This document shows, piece by piece, positions 5,105 through 10,059 of a stretch of DNA of 11,841 nucleotides. The notes under the pieces were generated by a model, which had not been told where the DNA came from, ran no database searches, and saw only the letters and a list, made by a program, of their open reading frames with translations. Numbering within the stretch: position 1 is the first letter of the stretch; every line of letters begins with the position of its first letter. The position numbers were made by a program, and so were the translations under genes. The stretch spans positions 1-11,841 of the forward strand of contig JASHXR010000094.1 in NCBI GenBank assembly GCA_030043435.1, in the 5' to 3' direction. This stretch comes from Microcaldota archaeon. Its GTDB lineage: Archaea > Micrarchaeota > Micrarchaeia > Micrarchaeales > CABMGC01.

Positions 5105-5710
5105 ATGGAGGGTATCGAGCAGCGGCGGGAGGAACTGGAGGAGTACGCAGTGGTGCTCGACTACCTGCCCATAGGCAGGAGCTCCTCGGCCAGGTCCGAG
5201 CCGCTCGTCCAGCTCCTGGGGGAGACCAAGTTCACGCTGCTCGAGGCCGTGCCCAAGAGCGGCGAGATAAAGATAGGGGAGGAGGTCTACATAGGCAAGG
5301 GCGACAGGGAGAAGGTCTCGCTGATAAAGTCCAGGCTGGGCTATGCTGACCTGAGCGAGGCCGCGAGGAAGGAGCTGCGCGACGCCATCTACAGCGTGGT
5401 CAAGAAGCACGAGGCGCAGTTCGTGGGGCTCTTCAACACGGCCTCGTCGCTCAACATAAGGATGCACTCGCTGGAGCTCCTGCCCAACGTCGGGAAGAAG
5501 CACCTTGCCGCTATACTGGACGCGCGCGAGGAGAAGCCGTTCGAGTCATTCGCTGACATAACGAAGAGGGTGCCGCTGCTGCAGGACCCGGCCAAGCTCA
5601 TAGTGGACAGGGTGGTGGTGGAGCTGAAGGGCGAGTCGAGGTTCTACATCCTCACCAAGCCGCCTGCCGTGAGCCACGAGCGCGAATACGACAGGGGGCA
5701 GCGGTACTGA
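5105..5710 (+). CDS. DUF655 family putative RNA-binding protein (COG1491)
   Basis: The protein has 201 residues. Its N-terminal part (about 13-75, from YAVVLDYLPIG to VYIGKGDREKV) has the beta-rich, OB-fold-like character of DUF655. A helical middle follows, then a helix-hairpin-helix motif around residues 122-141 (LELLPNVGKKHLAAILDAR) of the type that binds nucleic acid backbones. The C-terminus (from about 176) is polar. DUF655 is nearly universal in archaea and is normally found next to rpo4, often with ksgA, so a role in RNA metabolism is generally suspected; the exact function is unknown. Here it lies 23 bases after rpo4, probably in the same transcript, and is followed not by ksgA but by a tRNA gene with its own promoter. 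Confidence 0.9.
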   Translation: MEGIEQRREELEEYAVVLDYLPIGRSSSARSEPLVQLLGETKFTLLEAVPKSGEIKIGEEVYIGKGDREKVSLIKSRLGYADLSEAARKELRDAIYSVVKKHEAQFVGLFNTASSLNIRMHSLELLPNVGKKHLAAILDAREEKPFESFADITKRVPLLQDPAKLIVDRVVVELKGESRFYILTKPPAVSHEREYDRGQRY

Positions 5711-5738
5711 CGCGTTGGTGCTGGCCTTCCACTCAAAC

Positions 5739-5748
5739 GCATATAAAT
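5739..5748 (+). promoter_or_regulatory. TATA element for tRNA-Val
   Basis: GCATATAAAT, centred about 28 bases ahead of the first tRNA base, predicts transcription starting within a few bases of the mature 5' end. The tRNA is therefore probably transcribed independently of rpo4-DUF655. Confidence 0.65.
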
Positions 5749-5772
5749 GCGATATGCGCAATGTTCCTTCGC

Positions 5773-5843
5773 GGAGGCATAGTCTAGTGGCAGGACGGCA
5801 GATTGACATTCTGCAGACAGGAGTCCGATTCTCCTTGCCTCCA
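5773..5843 (+). tRNA. tRNA-Val (anticodon GAC)
   Basis: The cloverleaf folds completely. The acceptor stem is GGAGGCA (5773-5779) paired with TGCCTCC (5836-5842). The D-stem is GTC with GAC (5782-5784, 5794-5796) and carries the GG pair in its loop. The anticodon stem GCAGA/TCTGC (5798-5802, 5810-5814) encloses TTGACAT, giving anticodon GAC at 5805-5807. The T-stem is AGGAG/CTCCT (5819-5823, 5831-5835). The discriminator is A5843, normal for valine, and CCA is not encoded. Odd points: the variable loop has only four bases, and the T-loop reads TCCGATT, with C at position 55 where nearly all elongator tRNAs have T (pseudouridine). There is no intron. Confidence 0.9.
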
Positions 5844-5850
5844 TTACCAG

Positions 5851-6030
5851 ATCTTTCCAAAGACAAAGATTTCCAGTAAAAGTGCGTTTGCAGTCTAGGA
5901 GTTCGATTCTCAAACATTTCAGTTTAATGGAACTTTATATGTGACGTTTAGCATTGGATGCCGTAAGGCTTTGCTCAATTTAATATCCTTTGCGTCTGAA
6001 TACATCTAATAGAAGTTCCAGAGGGGGCTA
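5851..6030. other. AT-rich intergenic stretch after tRNA-Val with partial tRNA T-arm copy
   Basis: No gene is seen here. An inverted repeat (ATCTTT at 5851-5856, AAAGAT at 5865-5870) lies just past the tRNA and could end its transcript. At 5890-5911 the sequence repeats the tRNA variable/T-arm region (5813-5833) with one base inserted and two substitutions, this time with a normal TTCGATT loop. It lacks the matching acceptor 3' strand. Base composition changes from GC-rich to AT-rich here. A later motif at 5994-6011 recurs beside the vapB promoter. The layout is compatible with the edge of an inserted element, but no complete attachment site can be drawn. Confidence 0.45.
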
Positions 6031-6033
6031 ATG

Positions 6034-6042
6034 TTTATAAAA
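6034..6042 (+). promoter_or_regulatory. TATA element for the clan CD peptidase operon
   Basis: TTTATAAAA predicts a transcript start near 6065, about 45 bases ahead of the first ATG at 6109. A second weaker element (TTATAT, 6056-6061) would give a start nearer 6085. No comparable element is seen inside the operon, so the three genes are probably cotranscribed. Confidence 0.5.
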
Positions 6043-6108
6043 TCTGACATGATTGTTATATCGCGTAACATTATGCCAGCGATCAATAGTGTTAGGTTAA
6101 TTGATTAG

Positions 6109-6303
6109 ATGCCAATAGCTAAATCCGATTTGGAGAAATTCAGAGAGATTTACGCAAGACTTCCTGTTGCGGAACAGAAGATGCCAATAGTGAAGATAGG
6201 AGGCAAGATATGGACGTGGGAGGAATCATACAAGGAAATAGTAAGAGGAACTAAAGAAGCTGAGGAGATAGTTAAAAGGCTGCATGAGGTAGGAGTACTA
6301 TGA
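6109..6303 (+). CDS. Small hypothetical protein, first gene of peptidase operon
   Basis: The product has 64 residues and is not a family I can name. It is polar and mostly helical, with a central KIGGKIWTWEES segment (about 30-40) between two helical parts. No signal peptide or membrane helix is visible. It can be aligned with the product of the next gene around a shared pattern (hydrophobic-IGG/IGA, then T, then a E-I pair eight positions later, then an acidic helix ending in a basic-hydrophobic pair), so the two are probably diverged paralogues. The stop codon overlaps the next start as ATGA, suggesting translational coupling. Its place ahead of a caspase-fold peptidase suggests a regulator, adaptor or inhibitor of that enzyme; this is inference from context. 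Confidence 0.65.
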   Translation: MPIAKSDLEKFREIYARLPVAEQKMPIVKIGGKIWTWEESYKEIVRGTKEAEEIVKRLHEVGVL

Positions 6304-6521
6304 CAGACAAAATTCCCGAGAGTTTCTGGGATGTTCTAAAGGCCAGGTATAAGGAGATGCCCAAGGATGGCGTTATTCTGATAGGCGCTGGGGAGGAACT
6401 CACCAAGGCAAAGGCACTCGAGGAAATTGAAAAGAGAAGCGAGGTAGGCGAGCTTCTCGCAAGAATAGAATTGAATTATGTGAGACTATTCAAGGAGGAA
6501 GCCGAATGGGCAAAACAGTAG
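6300..6521 (+). CDS. Small hypothetical protein, second gene of peptidase operon, likely paralogue of the first
   Basis: The 73-residue product is charged and helical, without secretion or membrane signals. It resembles the preceding 64-residue protein around LIGAGEELTKAKALEEI (about 27-43) but carries a longer acidic/basic C-terminal helix and lacks the WTW segment. Its ATG overlaps the upstream stop (ATGA), with GGAG four bases ahead, and its 3' end overlaps the start of the peptidase gene by 16 bases. This tight packing implies that the three products are made together. I do not recognise the family; a binding partner of the peptidase is the simplest reading, and the function is unknown. 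Confidence 0.65.
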   Translation: MTDKIPESFWDVLKARYKEMPKDGVILIGAGEELTKAKALEEIEKRSEVGELLARIELNYVRLFKEEAEWAKQ

Positions 6522-7159
6522 TCATAACAAGACCAGATTTTGATCTTGCAACTTATTATTGGAAAAGGCTGAGCAGCGAGGTCATAACCTACGCTAAGGA
6601 GAGCGGATTCGAGGTTATAGATCTGCCAAAGGAAAAAGCAACGCGACAGAATCTTGAAAGGGCAGTACAGAGGTCGCCAAATCTGTACATACTTAATGGC
6701 CATGGGACCACAGAGACAGTTATGGGGCAGAAGAATGAGGTAATCCTAAACAGTGAAAATGTAAGCAGATTCAGTGGTAGCATCATATACACGATAGCCT
6801 GCGAAGCAATAGTCGGTATAGGAAAAAGGTCAATATCGGATGGCGTGCGGTGTTTTATTGGCTATAAGTTCCAGTTTGCAGTTTATAGCGATAAGAACCA
6901 CAGCGCAAATCCTGAAAACGACGAGTATGCAAGGCATTTCTTCGGAGCCACTAACATGATACCAAAGACCCTTTTCAAAGGAAATAGCTGCAATGAAGCG
7001 GTAGAACGGGCACGCGAAGCGTTCCAGAAGAGCATCATCGAGTTAAAAACTCGCACTGTAAAGGAATCTTTACCTGACAATGTGTGGACACTGAAATATC
7101 TGCTGTGGGATGCTGCAAGCCTGCATCTAGAAGGTGATGGAGATAGCAGGGCTTTCTGA
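6506..7159 (+). CDS. Clan CD (caspase/CHAT-like) cysteine peptidase homologue
   Basis: The protein has 217 residues. Two signatures of clan CD peptidases are present in the right order: a hydrophobic strand ending in His-Gly (NLYILNGHG, His66) and a second hydrophobic strand ending in Ala-Cys (GSIIYTIAC, Cys99). The 33-residue spacing is within the range seen in small CHAT, C25 and caspase-type domains. An alpha/beta start (KTVVITRPDF) and a later strand with FIGYKFQF (117-124) fit the same fold. There is no signal peptide, so it should act in the cytoplasm. A strong GGAGG lies seven bases before the ATG, inside the preceding gene. The length is enough for one catalytic domain with no attached sensor domain; the two small upstream proteins may supply that role. 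Some clan CD relatives are inactive, so activity is likely but unproven. The region is AT-richer than its surroundings, suggesting transfer. Confidence 0.75.
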   Translation: MGKTVVITRPDFDLATYYWKRLSSEVITYAKESGFEVIDLPKEKATRQNLERAVQRSPNLYILNGHGTTETVMGQKNEVILNSENVSRFSGSIIYTIACEAIVGIGKRSISDGVRCFIGYKFQFAVYSDKNHSANPENDEYARHFFGATNMIPKTLFKGNSCNEAVERAREAFQKSIIELKTRTVKESLPDNVWTLKYLLWDAASLHLEGDGDSRAF

Positions 7160-7177
7160 TGCGCCACCGGTGGTCTT

Positions 7178-7318
7178 ATGGGCAAACAAACGATGAAAAC
7201 AAAAGCAGGCAGATGGATGTTAAGCATGTGGGGTAAACGTTGCTCCGATTTCGATAAAAACTGTGCGCTCTGTAAGGCATGGAAAGCATACGACTACTTA
7301 TTCGCCTTCGAAGGTTAG
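7178..7318 (+). CDS. Small 46-residue Cys-containing protein downstream of the peptidase gene
   Basis: This short frame starts at an ATG with GGTGGT three bases upstream and ends at the TAG at 7316-7318. The product is basic and aromatic-rich, with WGKRCSDFDKNCALCKAWKAYD in its second half, holding three cysteines (22, 29 and 32) including a CxxC pair. That suggests a small metal-binding knuckle or a disulfide, though a fourth ligand is not evident. It is in the same frame as the peptidase gene, separated only by that gene's TGA and six codons, so it could be a detached C-terminal piece. Its end overlaps the broken vapC on the other strand. I do not recognise the family; the composition and ribosome-binding site favour a real gene. 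Confidence 0.5.
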   Translation: MGKQTMKTKAGRWMLSMWGKRCSDFDKNCALCKAWKAYDYLFAFEG

Positions 7319-7386
7319 ATAAGTGCGGTAGTGCCATCCTTGATGAAGGCTGCAAATATCACATTTGCATCTACCACTAGTTCGAC
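7315..7386 (-). pseudogene. vapC: Truncated VapC PIN-domain toxin remnant
   Basis: Directly after vapB, in the position of vapC, the minus strand encodes ELVVDANVIFAAFIKDGTT and then stops at TAA (7315-7317). The VVDANVIF stretch is the start of a PIN nuclease domain, with the first catalytic Asp; the remaining catalytic acids and about 100 residues are absent. The expected start codon is also lost: a good GGTGAT site is followed by GTC where ATG would be expected, although a GTG (7375-7377) remains. Downstream sequence on this strand shows no continuation in other frames. The break coincides with the end of the plus-strand 46-residue ORF, marking a likely insertion or deletion junction. No active toxin is expected. 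Confidence 0.7.
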
Positions 7387-7398
7387 GGGATCACCGCT

Positions 7399-7617
7399 TT
7401 ATTTCAGAAGTGCTGCAATTTCTTTATTTGCCTTTCTCCCTATGGCTATGGCATCCCTTTCTGTAAGGCTGCTCTTAGCCAGAAGCTTATCCATCTTCTC
7501 CAGTAAGGTCAATTTCTGAATTATCGACTGCCTGGCTACCTCAGACCAGTTTATCTCAGGGTGCTCATCCATCAATTTCTTCAGCTCTTTAGACACAGAT
7601 AGTGTTAAACTTGTCAT
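7399..7617 (-). CDS. vapB: VapB-type antitoxin, probable ribbon-helix-helix DNA-binding protein
   Basis: The 72-residue protein begins with a short beta strand (SLTLSVSKELKKLMDEH), then the helix-turn-helix part of a ribbon-helix-helix domain (NWSEVARQSIIQKL), and ends with a basic helix (IGRKANKEIAALLK) of the kind that wraps VapC toxins. This is the common architecture of archaeal VapB proteins. Such proteins dimerise, bind their own promoter and block the partner PIN nuclease. The cognate vapC immediately downstream is only a fragment, so this antitoxin is an orphan here. A TATA element (7646-7656) puts the transcript start about eight bases before the ATG, and 9-base direct repeats lie further upstream as a possible operator. 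Confidence 0.8.
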   Translation of the reverse strand: MTSLTLSVSKELKKLMDEHPEINWSEVARQSIIQKLTLLEKMDKLLAKSSLTERDAIAIGRKANKEIAALLK

Positions 7618-7645
7618 GTGTATCAGATAAACTATGAACGGATAA

Positions 7646-7656
7646 GTATTTATATG
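7646..7656 (-). promoter_or_regulatory. TATA element for vapB
   Basis: On the minus strand this reads CATATAAATAC, predicting transcription from near 7625 and a very short leader before the ATG at 7617. Confidence 0.55.
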
Positions 7657-7670
7657 TTACGTTTATTACG

Positions 7671-7697
7671 TCTAATATGTCTAATACATCTAATATG
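7671..7697. repeat. Three tandem 9-base repeats upstream of the vapB promoter
   Basis: TCTAATATG, TCTAATACA and TCTAATATG follow each other without gaps, and a weaker fourth copy (TTTATTACG, 7662-7670) precedes them. They lie just upstream of the vapB TATA element. Ribbon-helix-helix proteins typically bind short direct repeats, so this is a candidate operator for VapB. The inference is from position and repeat length. Confidence 0.55.
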
Positions 7698-7831
7698 TTT
7701 AAGTATGGGCTTTCAGTAGCGTATGTATTGTTTCTCCATCTGCATTTGCTACTACAGAGCCTTGCCTTATGCCTTGGCATTTGAATTGGGTGCAGGTTAC
7801 AGATACAGAGATGCTTTAAGGAGCGCAGCCC

Positions 7832-8392
7832 TTATTGCTGCCTGCGCATCCGGCCCATCTCGGCCTCTACGAGCTCCCCCAGCGCGGCGAACCTCGTCTC
7901 GTCTATGGTCGGGTCCCTTACGACCTCCGACCATGCCCTGGAGGCATCTCTGACAAGCTGCTTCGGGATATGCGCCGGAGCGGCTTCGCCCTGCGCCTCG
8001 GAGCCTTTGCGGCCAGTCTCCTTCAAGACCACCACTCGTGATGTCTCGTCAGGTTTGTCGTCGACTCCGGCATGCAGCCCGGCGTAGCTTCTTACTACTA
8101 GCAGGTACGCGGCCCGAGACCTTGACTCGGCGCCCTGGTCGCGGACATACGACCACTCCTCTGGCTCCAAGGCCCTTGTAAACGCGATGTTTGAGTCGGT
8201 ATCGTCCCTCGCTGCCCTCACCTCGTCCAGAGTGAGCAGCTCTTGCCCCTTCCTGCCTGCAGCGAAGTCGATTGTCTGCTGCAAGTTCATTCCGCTGCCC
8301 TCGGCGAACCTAAGCACCGCGTACCTCTGTCCGTTTGCGGTGAAGTGGTCGGTACTGACAGGTTGAATCTGTCTGGCTCTCACTGAAGGCAT
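7832..8392 (-). CDS. Hypothetical protein (186 residues), unrecognised
   Basis: I do not recognise this protein. It is soluble, without membrane helices or signal peptide. The N-terminal half has strand-like stretches (QRYAVLRFAEGSG) and an acidic segment with DEVRAARDDTDSN. The middle contains RAAYLLVVRSYAGLHAG (about 92-108), and the last 40 residues are helical and charged, ending in EAEMGRMRRQQ. A longer frame reaches 8512, but the ATG at 8392 is chosen because a TATA element (8428-8436) sits within the extension, giving a start of transcription near 8406. Codon use and GC content match the organism's core genes, so it is unlikely to be recent. It is transcribed divergently from the TraB-like gene, with an operator-like palindrome over its start site. 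Confidence 0.7.
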   Translation of the reverse strand: MPSVRARQIQPVSTDHFTANGQRYAVLRFAEGSGMNLQQTIDFAAGRKGQELLTLDEVRAARDDTDSNIAFTRALEPEEWSYVRDQGAESRSRAAYLLVVRSYAGLHAGVDDKPDETSRVVVLKETGRKGSEAQGEAAPAHIPKQLVRDASRAWSEVVRDPTIDETRFAALGELVEAEMGRMRRQQ

Positions 8393-8400
8393 GGAATCCA

Positions 8401-8417
8401 CACAGTGCCATACTGTG
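8401..8417. promoter_or_regulatory. Operator-like palindrome at the start of the 186-residue protein gene
   Basis: CACAGT (8401-8406) and ACTGTG (8412-8417) form a perfect inverted repeat with a five-base spacer. It lies between the TATA element and the ATG, over the predicted transcript start, a common place for archaeal repressor binding. A hairpin in the leader RNA is the alternative. Confidence 0.4.
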
Positions 8418-8427
8418 ATTTCCGTCC

Positions 8428-8436
8428 TATATAAAC
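8428..8436 (-). promoter_or_regulatory. TATA element for the 186-residue protein gene
   Basis: The minus strand reads GTTTATATA. Spacing to the ATG at 8392 is consistent with a leader of about 15 bases, and it rules against the longer frame that would begin upstream. Confidence 0.6.
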
Positions 8437-8537
8437 ATTGTTTTACTTCGGGAGCTGCCTTGTCCCGAAATAATGTCCTCACGACAAATAGGCCAATTGC
8501 GAGTCTGGGCAATACGTCATGACGATCTCAAGGCAAT

Positions 8538-8594: not shown

Positions 8595-9812
8595 GTGTCA
8601 ATGAGACAGTTGCGCAAGCCCAATCCGGATAGCCGGCATCTTGAGATAGAGAAGCTCTATGGAGCAGTGCATGGCGCCTGGGCGGTAGACCGCTTCTTCG
8701 GCAGCCATGAGCTCCTCCTCAGGCCGAGCATGGAGATGCTCAATGGCATTGAGGCGCTGGGGAGGGGCAGGCTGGTAGGGCTGGAGAGCTTCGCGCCTGG
8801 CTCACTCGCAGAGCGGCAGAGTGTCGGGGGAATGGCGGTGGCCCTCGCCGACGGCTCGATCAGGTACTGGGGCGAGGTCGAGGAGCACTGCAGGGCGAGC
8901 GGGCTCAGGGTCGCATACCTCGACCCCGTGGACACCTACCGCCAGTACATAGAGATGGCGGTCAGGCACGCACGGCTCTCCGAGAGGCTGCGCACCCTAG
9001 GGGACGTACAGGGCATGGAGTCCGCGATGGCAAGGAAGCTCCTGAATGAGGTGTACAGGTCAGACATCGAGCTGAAGCACTTCTTGGTCGTGGAGAGGGA
9101 GAAGGGCATCATCGGGGCCATGCGCGAGAGCATGCCAGACTGTGTAGTAGTCGGCAGGGGCCATGCCGATATCCTCTGGGCGGAGAGTGGTGAGGGCAGG
9201 TATGGCATTCGTTTCGGCGCGTACAGGGCCGAGGTAGAGCCGGATAAGGGCGCAATCGCGCGCGCGGTGCGGGAGCATTACCTGGGAGCGGCGTTCGGGA
9301 GCGCCCAGGCAGGAGAGGGCAGCGGCACGGTGCTGCCGTGGCACGGGCAGGTCAGCATGATGTATAGGAACACGCTGGATTCAGAGGCTGCATCCAAGGC
9401 AGGCACTCTGGAGGGCCAGGCCGCGCGCTCCTCGCTGCTGCGGAGGTTCAGCGCGGTGAGTGGCGGGAAGGTCACGGAAGGGGGCAGGCCCGACTTCATA
9501 GGCACGTGGGACAGGGAGGTGCCTGCGCGCGGCCTCTTCGAGATGACGATAGGCAGCGACAGCGGGAGGAGGGTGATGGGCGCCATCGAGGATACAATAG
9601 GGAGCGCGCTCTTCGTAGGAAGCAGGCACGGCTCCAGGTTCACGTTCGAGAAGAGCTATACCTCGCAGGCGGTCCTCGCCGGGGGGCCGGAGGAGCGCAT
9701 AACATACGAGGCGGTGCTGCATGACGAGAGGTATGTAGGGAGGTTCCACGGCCCTGCCAGCGGCGAGTTCGAGATGTGGAGGCCCGGGTCTCTGCCTGAC
9801 CTGAGGCGCTAG
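8595..9812 (+). CDS. Two-domain protein: TraB/EreA-like N-terminal domain and lipocalin-like C-terminal beta barrel
   Basis: The protein has 405 residues from GTG at 8595; the ATG two codons on (8601) is equally possible. The N-terminal 235 residues carry two G-x-x-H motifs, GAVH (23-26) in LYGAVHGAW and GRGH (187-190) in VVVGRGHAD. VGLESF with Glu64 and an EREKGIIGAM helix (168-176) lie between them. This arrangement is that of the TraB/PrgY/GumN/TIKI and EreA/ChaN superfamily, which includes metal-dependent hydrolases. The last 110 residues (about 298-398) contain FIGTW, VMGAIEDTIGSALFVG, FEKSY, VGRFHGPASGEFEMW, a repeat of short strands like small lipocalin-type barrels. No signal peptide or membrane helix is seen. 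The domain calls are by motif; the substrate is unknown. It is divergent from the 186-residue protein gene, with no close downstream partner. Confidence 0.55.
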   Translation: MSMRQLRKPNPDSRHLEIEKLYGAVHGAWAVDRFFGSHELLLRPSMEMLNGIEALGRGRLVGLESFAPGSLAERQSVGGMAVALADGSIRYWGEVEEHCRASGLRVAYLDPVDTYRQYIEMAVRHARLSERLRTLGDVQGMESAMARKLLNEVYRSDIELKHFLVVEREKGIIGAMRESMPDCVVVGRGHADILWAESGEGRYGIRFGAYRAEVEPDKGAIARAVREHYLGAAFGSAQAGEGSGTVLPWHGQVSMMYRNTLDSEAASKAGTLEGQAARSSLLRRFSAVSGGKVTEGGRPDFIGTWDREVPARGLFEMTIGSDSGRRVMGAIEDTIGSALFVGSRHGSRFTFEKSYTSQAVLAGGPEERITYEAVLHDERYVGRFHGPASGEFEMWRPGSLPDLRR

Positions 9813-9896: not shown

Positions 9897-10059
9897 GGTG
9901 CTTCTGTGGCCACCATTAGCTTGTAGAGGCTTATTTTCGAGGGCTACACGCTTGATGAGAAAATGCATTGGCTAGAGCCAATGCGCTGCGTCTATATGCT
10001 AGGCCATGGAACCTGTGTGAGATTGCGCTAAGCAATTGATTTGAGGAGAAGTCGAGCTT
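9897..10059 (+). other. 23S rRNA leader with stem-loops
   Basis: No gene is seen in this pre-rRNA leader. It holds a perfect inverted repeat of nine-base arms, GCATTGGCT at 9965-9973 and AGCCAATGC at 9976-9984, and a smaller one, ATTGC at 10022-10026 with GCAAT at 10032-10036. Archaeal pre-23S is normally cut in a stem formed with the 3' trailer, which is outside this window, so the processing stem cannot be verified. Confidence 0.5.

Follow-up and report, generated by a model that had tools for sequence, protein, structure and literature searches.

A conserved gene trio of DPANN archaea and Candidate Phyla Radiation bacteria sets a predicted caspase-fold protease behind two small partner genes

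Type II toxin–antitoxin loci place small partner genes first, overlapping or abutting the gene of the effector, and they are patchily distributed, sometimes multicopy and known also from decayed copies. The gingipain RgpB, a protease of family C25, is secreted. As described in PMC4357240, the architecture of RgpB includes a prodomain of 229 residues, an additional N-terminal subdomain and an immunoglobulin (Ig)-like domain, and gingipain R is restrained by a loop of the prodomain, which puts an arginine into the S1 pocket. Prokaryotic metacaspases (C14B) sit in operons with varied genes, and the archaeal cases in one survey came from 5 of 114 genomes, all Euryarchaeota with one gene each (PMC3501461). 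Few defence systems are recognised in ultra-small archaea and bacteria. A 2026 survey of archaeal immunity finds CRISPR-Cas and restriction–modification under-represented in DPANN archaea and AbiE, SoFic and several candidate systems enriched, and likens this pattern to that of Patescibacteria and other small-genome, host-dependent bacteria; caspase, protease, peptidase and CHAT are terms absent from its main text (PMC12988326). Here we analyse three genes, A, B and C, in a stretch of 11,841 nucleotides (nt) that is one contig (JASHXR010000094.1; hereafter the window) of the small draft genome of a Microcaldota archaeon (GCA_030043435.1; G000, 746,368 bases, 125 contigs). The trio is real and conserved; the libraries searched give it no name and, as an earlier sequence-only reading of the window had supposed, contain no named system with such a layout. 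Among prokaryotic clan CD proteases with dedicated partners it is a three-component variant, of which we found no account among the titles and abstracts listed by the literature searches, subscription papers lying mostly outside them.

Gene A (6109–6303, + strand) encodes a small partner protein of 64 amino acids, gene B (6300–6521, +) another of 73, and gene C (6506–7159, +) a single-domain clan CD cysteine peptidase homologue of 217; the open reading frames (ORFs) bear out the overlaps of 4 nt (A–B) and 16 nt (B–C) that the sequence-only reading had described. With L080–L104, L107 and L108 (fetched for A), L032, and the two loci L173 and L176 that each overlap another locus left out beforehand, a deduplicated count gave 122 distinct C places, 116 core and 6 distant (L079, L153–L157); a weak C place in genome G776 (E 5.1e-4) lies outside the count. 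An intact C, defined as a single open frame covering 85% or more of the C profile, occurs at 101 of the 116 core places. At 100 of these, intact A and B (75% and 70% of their profiles) stand directly upstream in the order A–B–C, so that the three-gene operon described from the window alone is conserved across the core family; at the remaining place, L115, B is present and A lies beyond the contig edge. All 100 complete core loci have the small genes first, co-directional with C and at short overlaps or gaps, the gene order of type II toxin–antitoxin loci. With start codons chosen by rule, the gap is at most 40 nt between A and B in 96 of them and between B and C in every one (medians 0.5 and −4 nt), with overlaps in 49 and 56 loci, respectively. 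Pooled ratios of nonsynonymous to synonymous polymorphism (pN/pS) over eight independent pairs are 0.154 for A, 0.125 for B and 0.169 for C, which denotes purifying selection. With this order shared by the window and 99 further distinct complete loci, and the genes under purifying selection, the trio is not a chance arrangement.

Structure prediction confidently assigns C a caspase (clan CD) fold, an α/β/α arrangement with a six-stranded central sheet. His66 follows strand 60–64 (strand 3) and Cys99 follows strand 93–97 (strand 4), in agreement with the caspase-fold assignment of the sequence-only reading, and the two motifs on which that assignment was built are present in the translation: NGHG, with His66 (codons for Asn64–Gly67 at 6695–6706, +), and IAC, with Cys99 (codon at 6800–6802, +). 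Clan CD is defined by a catalytic His and Cys that end strands 3 and 4 and a Gly beside the His (PMC4357240). In the model C has the fold, both residues at C-terminal strand ends and Gly67 beside the His, and by predicted fold it is a member of clan CD. Across 100 core C sequences the His is kept in 99, the Cys in 99 and the Gly in 100, and His66 and Cys99 form the predicted catalytic dyad; Asp13 is a candidate S1 residue. The sequence-only reading had named as damaging to itself a structure without a caspase fold, a His66 and Cys99 that are not juxtaposed, and homologues lacking both residues and the small genes; the fold is caspase-like, the two residues lie at strand ends as in clan CD, and core homologues keep both residues at the rates just given together with both small genes.

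Curated families place C less closely. A, B and C stayed below every cut-off in Pfam, PHROGs, NCBIfam and PADLOC, and none of their E-values was convincing: at E 1, C had no Pfam or PADLOC match and none of the three matched a PADLOC family, and an NCBIfam row for C, at E 0.093, is at chance level. The profile search against C14, C25 and CHAT that had been proposed for C left the window protein unmatched, C25 (PF01364) being absent even at E 1. By sequence C is not a member of any of the three families as curated, and some relatives are weakly C25- or BovA-like. C25 matches 3 of 52 C family members at E 0.1 (best E 0.00095), a result given by E-value and not by score against the gathering cut-off, BovA of PADLOC shows weak similarity to 6 of the 52, and these are the nearest curated profiles. 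CHAT (PF12770) and C14 (PF00656) match none of the 52 at E 0.1, and neither is among the 21 Pfam families matched; prokaryotic metacaspases share with C the clan CD dyad and fold, but no member matches the C14 profile. Among the family proteins listed, 81 of 84 span 203–220 amino acids and 3 are shorter, in a search that admitted only proteins of 0.55–1.75 times the query length. Against solved structures, C alone had no sequence match at E 1, and profile searches of C, A and B gave best rows of only E 0.17 or worse.

The two partners have conserved features of their own. In the A family alignment (A4), P19, W37 and E43 are invariant in 46 sequences, and position 23 is a nearly invariant Arg that the window's A replaces with Gln. 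The structure predicted for B (mean predicted local distance difference test score 91.0) comprises a helix (7–18), a hairpin (25–35), a second helix (36–45) and a long helix (48–72), a fold for which we found no close match among solved structures. The B family counts 285 protein clusters at E 0.01; the 120 listed carry no recorded Pfam domain and, where named, are called hypothetical protein. Libraries including Pfam and NCBIfam gave no convincing DNA-binding profile match for the small partners, B among them. The core profiles of A and B have a pattern in common, yet hhalign finds them no more than weakly similar (probabilities of 23% at E 0.00088 and 15% at E 0.0017), and direct pair scores are mostly near shuffled values (mean z 0.82; 22.5% above 2) over 40 pairs, most of them drawn from different loci since the two alignments list different loci. 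L157 (1124–2262), which lies on a contig of 3.6 kb, carries a natural A–B fusion of 125 amino acids that overlaps by 4 nt the start of a 254-amino-acid C relative. Its first half fits the A profile best (E 5.8e-7) and its second half the B profile (E 4.8e-12), with E-values computed as for a one-sequence search, and the halves resemble each other better than any of 5,000 shuffles. Because the fusion halves resemble each other and match A and B respectively, we accept from this one distant fusion that A and B are related.

Set beside the catalytic domain of gingipain, to which it is 12% identical over the aligned part, C is a single domain; the prodomain and multidomain layout of C25 is lacking, and two separate small partner genes accompany C instead. 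In contrast to the CHAT defence proteases (SAVED-CHAT, Csx29/TPR-CHAT of Craspase and BovA of Borvo), C has no SAVED or TPR sensor domain, and we found no solved structure that resembles A or B, by sequence for both and by fold for B. C can be likened to a small CHAT- or gingipain-type protease, but its partners are separate. With type II toxin–antitoxin systems the trio has in common small genes that come first and overlap or abut the effector, patchy occurrence, occasional multiple copies and decayed copies; it differs in an effector that is a predicted protease, in two related partner genes and in a B without a DNA-binding profile match.

Core C places lie mostly in DPANN archaea and Candidate Phyla Radiation (CPR) bacteria. 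Two short patterns, which divergent members escape, picked out 46 loci in 84,980 species genomes, including Woesearchaeota, Pacearchaeota, Micrarchaeota, Aenigmatarchaeota, Diapherotrites, Nanohaloarchaeota and several CPR phyla, as well as one Omnitrophota and one Methanoperedens, for both of which bin contamination is possible. Within the window's phylum 27 of 301 genomes have C, and within its genus 2 of 10 do; a third genome of the genus, G009, has a contig ending within A. In the phylum to which one Woesearchaeota genome belongs, C occurs in 38 of 327 genomes, a count that takes in fragments; the corresponding figures are 12 of 379 for the phylum of a Woesebacteria genome, 3 of 145 for genomes grouped with Omnitrophota and 6 of 246 for those grouped with Methanoperedens, five of these six being distant relatives. 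Two or three copies occur in G053, G314, G312, G749, G757 and G873; a 119 kb Aenigmatarchaeota contig (G314:C7; L174, L175) has three C genes, at least two of them accompanied by A and B. When 45 C proteins are placed in a tree, whose deep branches are not resolved, phylum labels barely cluster (18 changes against a minimum of 14; 24 of 200 shuffles as low), and some mixed pairs have strong support, for example Omnitrophota with Staskawiczbacteria (100/100); the poor clustering and the mixed pairs fit transfer.

Distant relatives depart from the core layout in several ways. In the tailed virus vir519 (BK063666.1; L079 5726–6669), whose host is given as Methanofastidiosa, a C relative with a hydrophobic C-terminal segment overlaps a gene of 66 amino acids weakly similar to A and B. 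The C relative at L154 (1426–2382, reverse-strand coordinates) ends in Cys-containing tandem repeats and is followed by a gene that reads as a radical SAM/SPASM enzyme, a possible link to peptide modification. For the distant C relatives at L155 and L156, neither A nor B was found. A fixed fourth gene was sought among 97 of 245 flanking ORFs, hand-picked toward likely real genes and representing every one of the 46 named loci except L046, and was rejected: the 97 ORFs matched 122 Pfam families, of which none of the 25 with most members occurs in more than two proteins, and in PADLOC 38 families, none of the 25 listed in more than two proteins.

Loss within the trio falls unevenly on its genes. 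Nine core loci have a broken C beside intact A and B (L024, L030, L068, L112, L122, L145, L146, L147 and L169), and no core locus was seen with an intact C that lacks A and B or with a broken A or B beside an intact C; in L026 and L077 a contig edge cuts C, and L077 keeps A and B. If single lesions fell at random over the trio, the chance that all nine would lie in C-only sequence is about 0.011, a figure limited by possible frame errors in draft assemblies and by the fact that C served to find the loci. L173 (2845–5658) holds tandem trios, one intact and one a scar in which A is joined to a C tail without the active site. The A profile finds A in 28 of 296 genomes, namely the C-bearing genomes of the window's phylum except G171 (where C begins at a contig edge, in a genome perhaps outside the 296), plus G009, with its contig ending within A, and G264, with a remnant. 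Neither core C nor A was seen intact without the rest of the trio; B was not searched in whole genomes.

We favour, at a confidence slightly short of even, the reading that the trio is a compact, self-contained proteolytic effector module in which C is held by A and B, following the logic of toxin–antitoxin or abortive-infection systems. Its fold, dyad, gene order, A–B relatedness and selection are computed; its activity, complex, inhibition, trigger and target we infer. C would be an active cytosolic clan CD cysteine endopeptidase, cleaving probably after a basic residue, and A and B, as two related small domains made from overlapping genes directly 5′ of C, would jointly bind C and hold it inactive. 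A signal such as virus infection, stress or loss of the locus would disturb the complex, and released C would then cut proteins of the cell or virus until growth stops, the protease being the toxic part. Without the pair C would be either dangerous or pointless, and the nine broken C genes beside intact A and B, set against no intact core C without them, lean to the former and suggest that A and B restrain C; this asymmetry is indirect and favours restraint, one of the roles that the sequence-only reading had offered for the small proteins, over activation, not strongly. A fuller claim, that the trio is a previously unnamed proteolytic toxin–antitoxin or abortive-infection system of DPANN and CPR in which a heterodimer of paralogous, new-fold small domains holds a minimal caspase-like protease, we consider somewhat unlikely. 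If true, it would mean a stripped-down caspase-and-inhibitor switch in the smallest symbiotic cells of both domains of life. Strictly conserved and present in both radiations, a protease unit of 1 kb with two partners of its own is a good candidate for a compact defence system; as a caspase-type proteolytic switch it would be very small, of a size that a laboratory strain could carry whole for testing.

Several observations weigh against a restrained toxic protease. Purifying selection on all three genes is ordinary, with no sign of an arms race, and one of the 100 core C sequences lacks the His and one the Cys. Four broken or fragmentary C genes stand without A and B (L160, L170, L171 and L172, with L171 near a contig edge), the nine decayed loci come from draft assemblies in which frame errors are possible, and the L173 scar retains A and the C tail but not B. 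Orphan antitoxins often stand alone, and no stand-alone intact A was seen with the A profile in the 296 genomes. The 97 neighbour proteins chosen do not obviously form a defence island: no defence family recurs among them and PADLOC hits are scattered, though from such a choice we claim neither enrichment nor depletion of defence genes. No core-family copy was found in IMG/VR, plasmid or phage records at the sensitivity used.

The same linkage and gene order would fit equally well if A and B were activators or substrate adaptors, a pair that senses a trigger or delivers a target and so switches C on, C then being useless rather than dangerous when alone. Abstracts on Craspase link activation of its TPR-CHAT protease to the partner's recognition of target RNA, and a core C never intact without A and B is what a cofactor-dependent enzyme would show. 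Activation should however leave a broken A or B beside an intact C at times, and the absence of such core loci against nine with C broken, albeit a small number, speaks against this explanation, which we regard as unlikely. Purifying selection on all three genes and the spread across many DPANN and CPR lineages would also suit a protease that has A and B for substrates or pro-peptides and whose regulated processing meets a housekeeping or symbiotic need special to ultra-small cells; the nearly invariant Arg23 of the A family recalls the arginine that the gingipain R prodomain loop puts into the S1 pocket. That account is rather improbable given the patchiness within the window's own genus, the two or three copies in some genomes, the decayed remnants and the Gln that the window's A has at position 23.

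An origin in viruses or other mobile elements, with capture by cells and a function in superinfection exclusion or counter-defence, would draw on the vir519 C relative and its overlapping A/B-like gene, on the other proteins of the 3.6 kb L157 contig, which read as membrane-anchored, and on the AT-rich window copy beside a tRNA with a repeated T-arm fragment. Yet the core family was not found in viral contigs, phages or plasmids at the sensitivity used, a core copy (L036) sits on a chromosome record of 874,869 bases, and there is no general tRNA or GC signature; we judge this origin very improbable.

In the window itself, a TATA-box-like TTTATAAA at 6034–6041 (+), located by pattern search (two matches in the window against 0.10 expected), is a candidate archaeal promoter element and may be the single promoter of the trio. 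The AT-rich island and adjacent tRNA noted in the sequence-only reading are true of the window and do not extend to the family. GC content is 0.40–0.46 in 500-base segments over 5751–7750 and 0.50–0.66 in those wholly outside 5500–8000, the trio-minus-flank difference of −0.144 being the largest among 42 loci; in 26 of these 42 the trio has a lower GC content than its flanks (mean difference over the loci −0.026), and an AT-rich island was rejected as a general feature. tRNA-Val(GAC) lies 5′ of the trio at 5773–5843. tRNA adjacency was likewise rejected: only the window and one other locus of 108 have a tRNA in the 500 nt upstream, and a single locus of 106 has one downstream.

A T-arm-like sequence of the tRNA-Val (5820–5833, +) is repeated with one base changed at 5898–5911 (+), beginning 55 nt beyond the tRNA end (degenerate pattern: two matches, 0.00 expected), and is possibly the scar of an integration at the tRNA. 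At L106, from another genome of the window's genus, the contig stops within gene A and the adjoining sequence reads as a tRNA and a tyrosine recombinase. Between the trio and an archaeal 23S rRNA gene starting at 10054, ORFs at 7832–8512 (−, 226 amino acids) and 8595–9812 (+, 405 amino acids) have no Pfam match at E 1. Nearer the trio, at 7315–7617 (−), a VapB-like antitoxin gene (NCBIfam NF050799, E 2.2e-6, under the cut-off) is followed by a 27-codon remnant that ends in a stop and looks like the beginning of a PIN domain; together they may be a decayed VapBC pair adjoining the trio.
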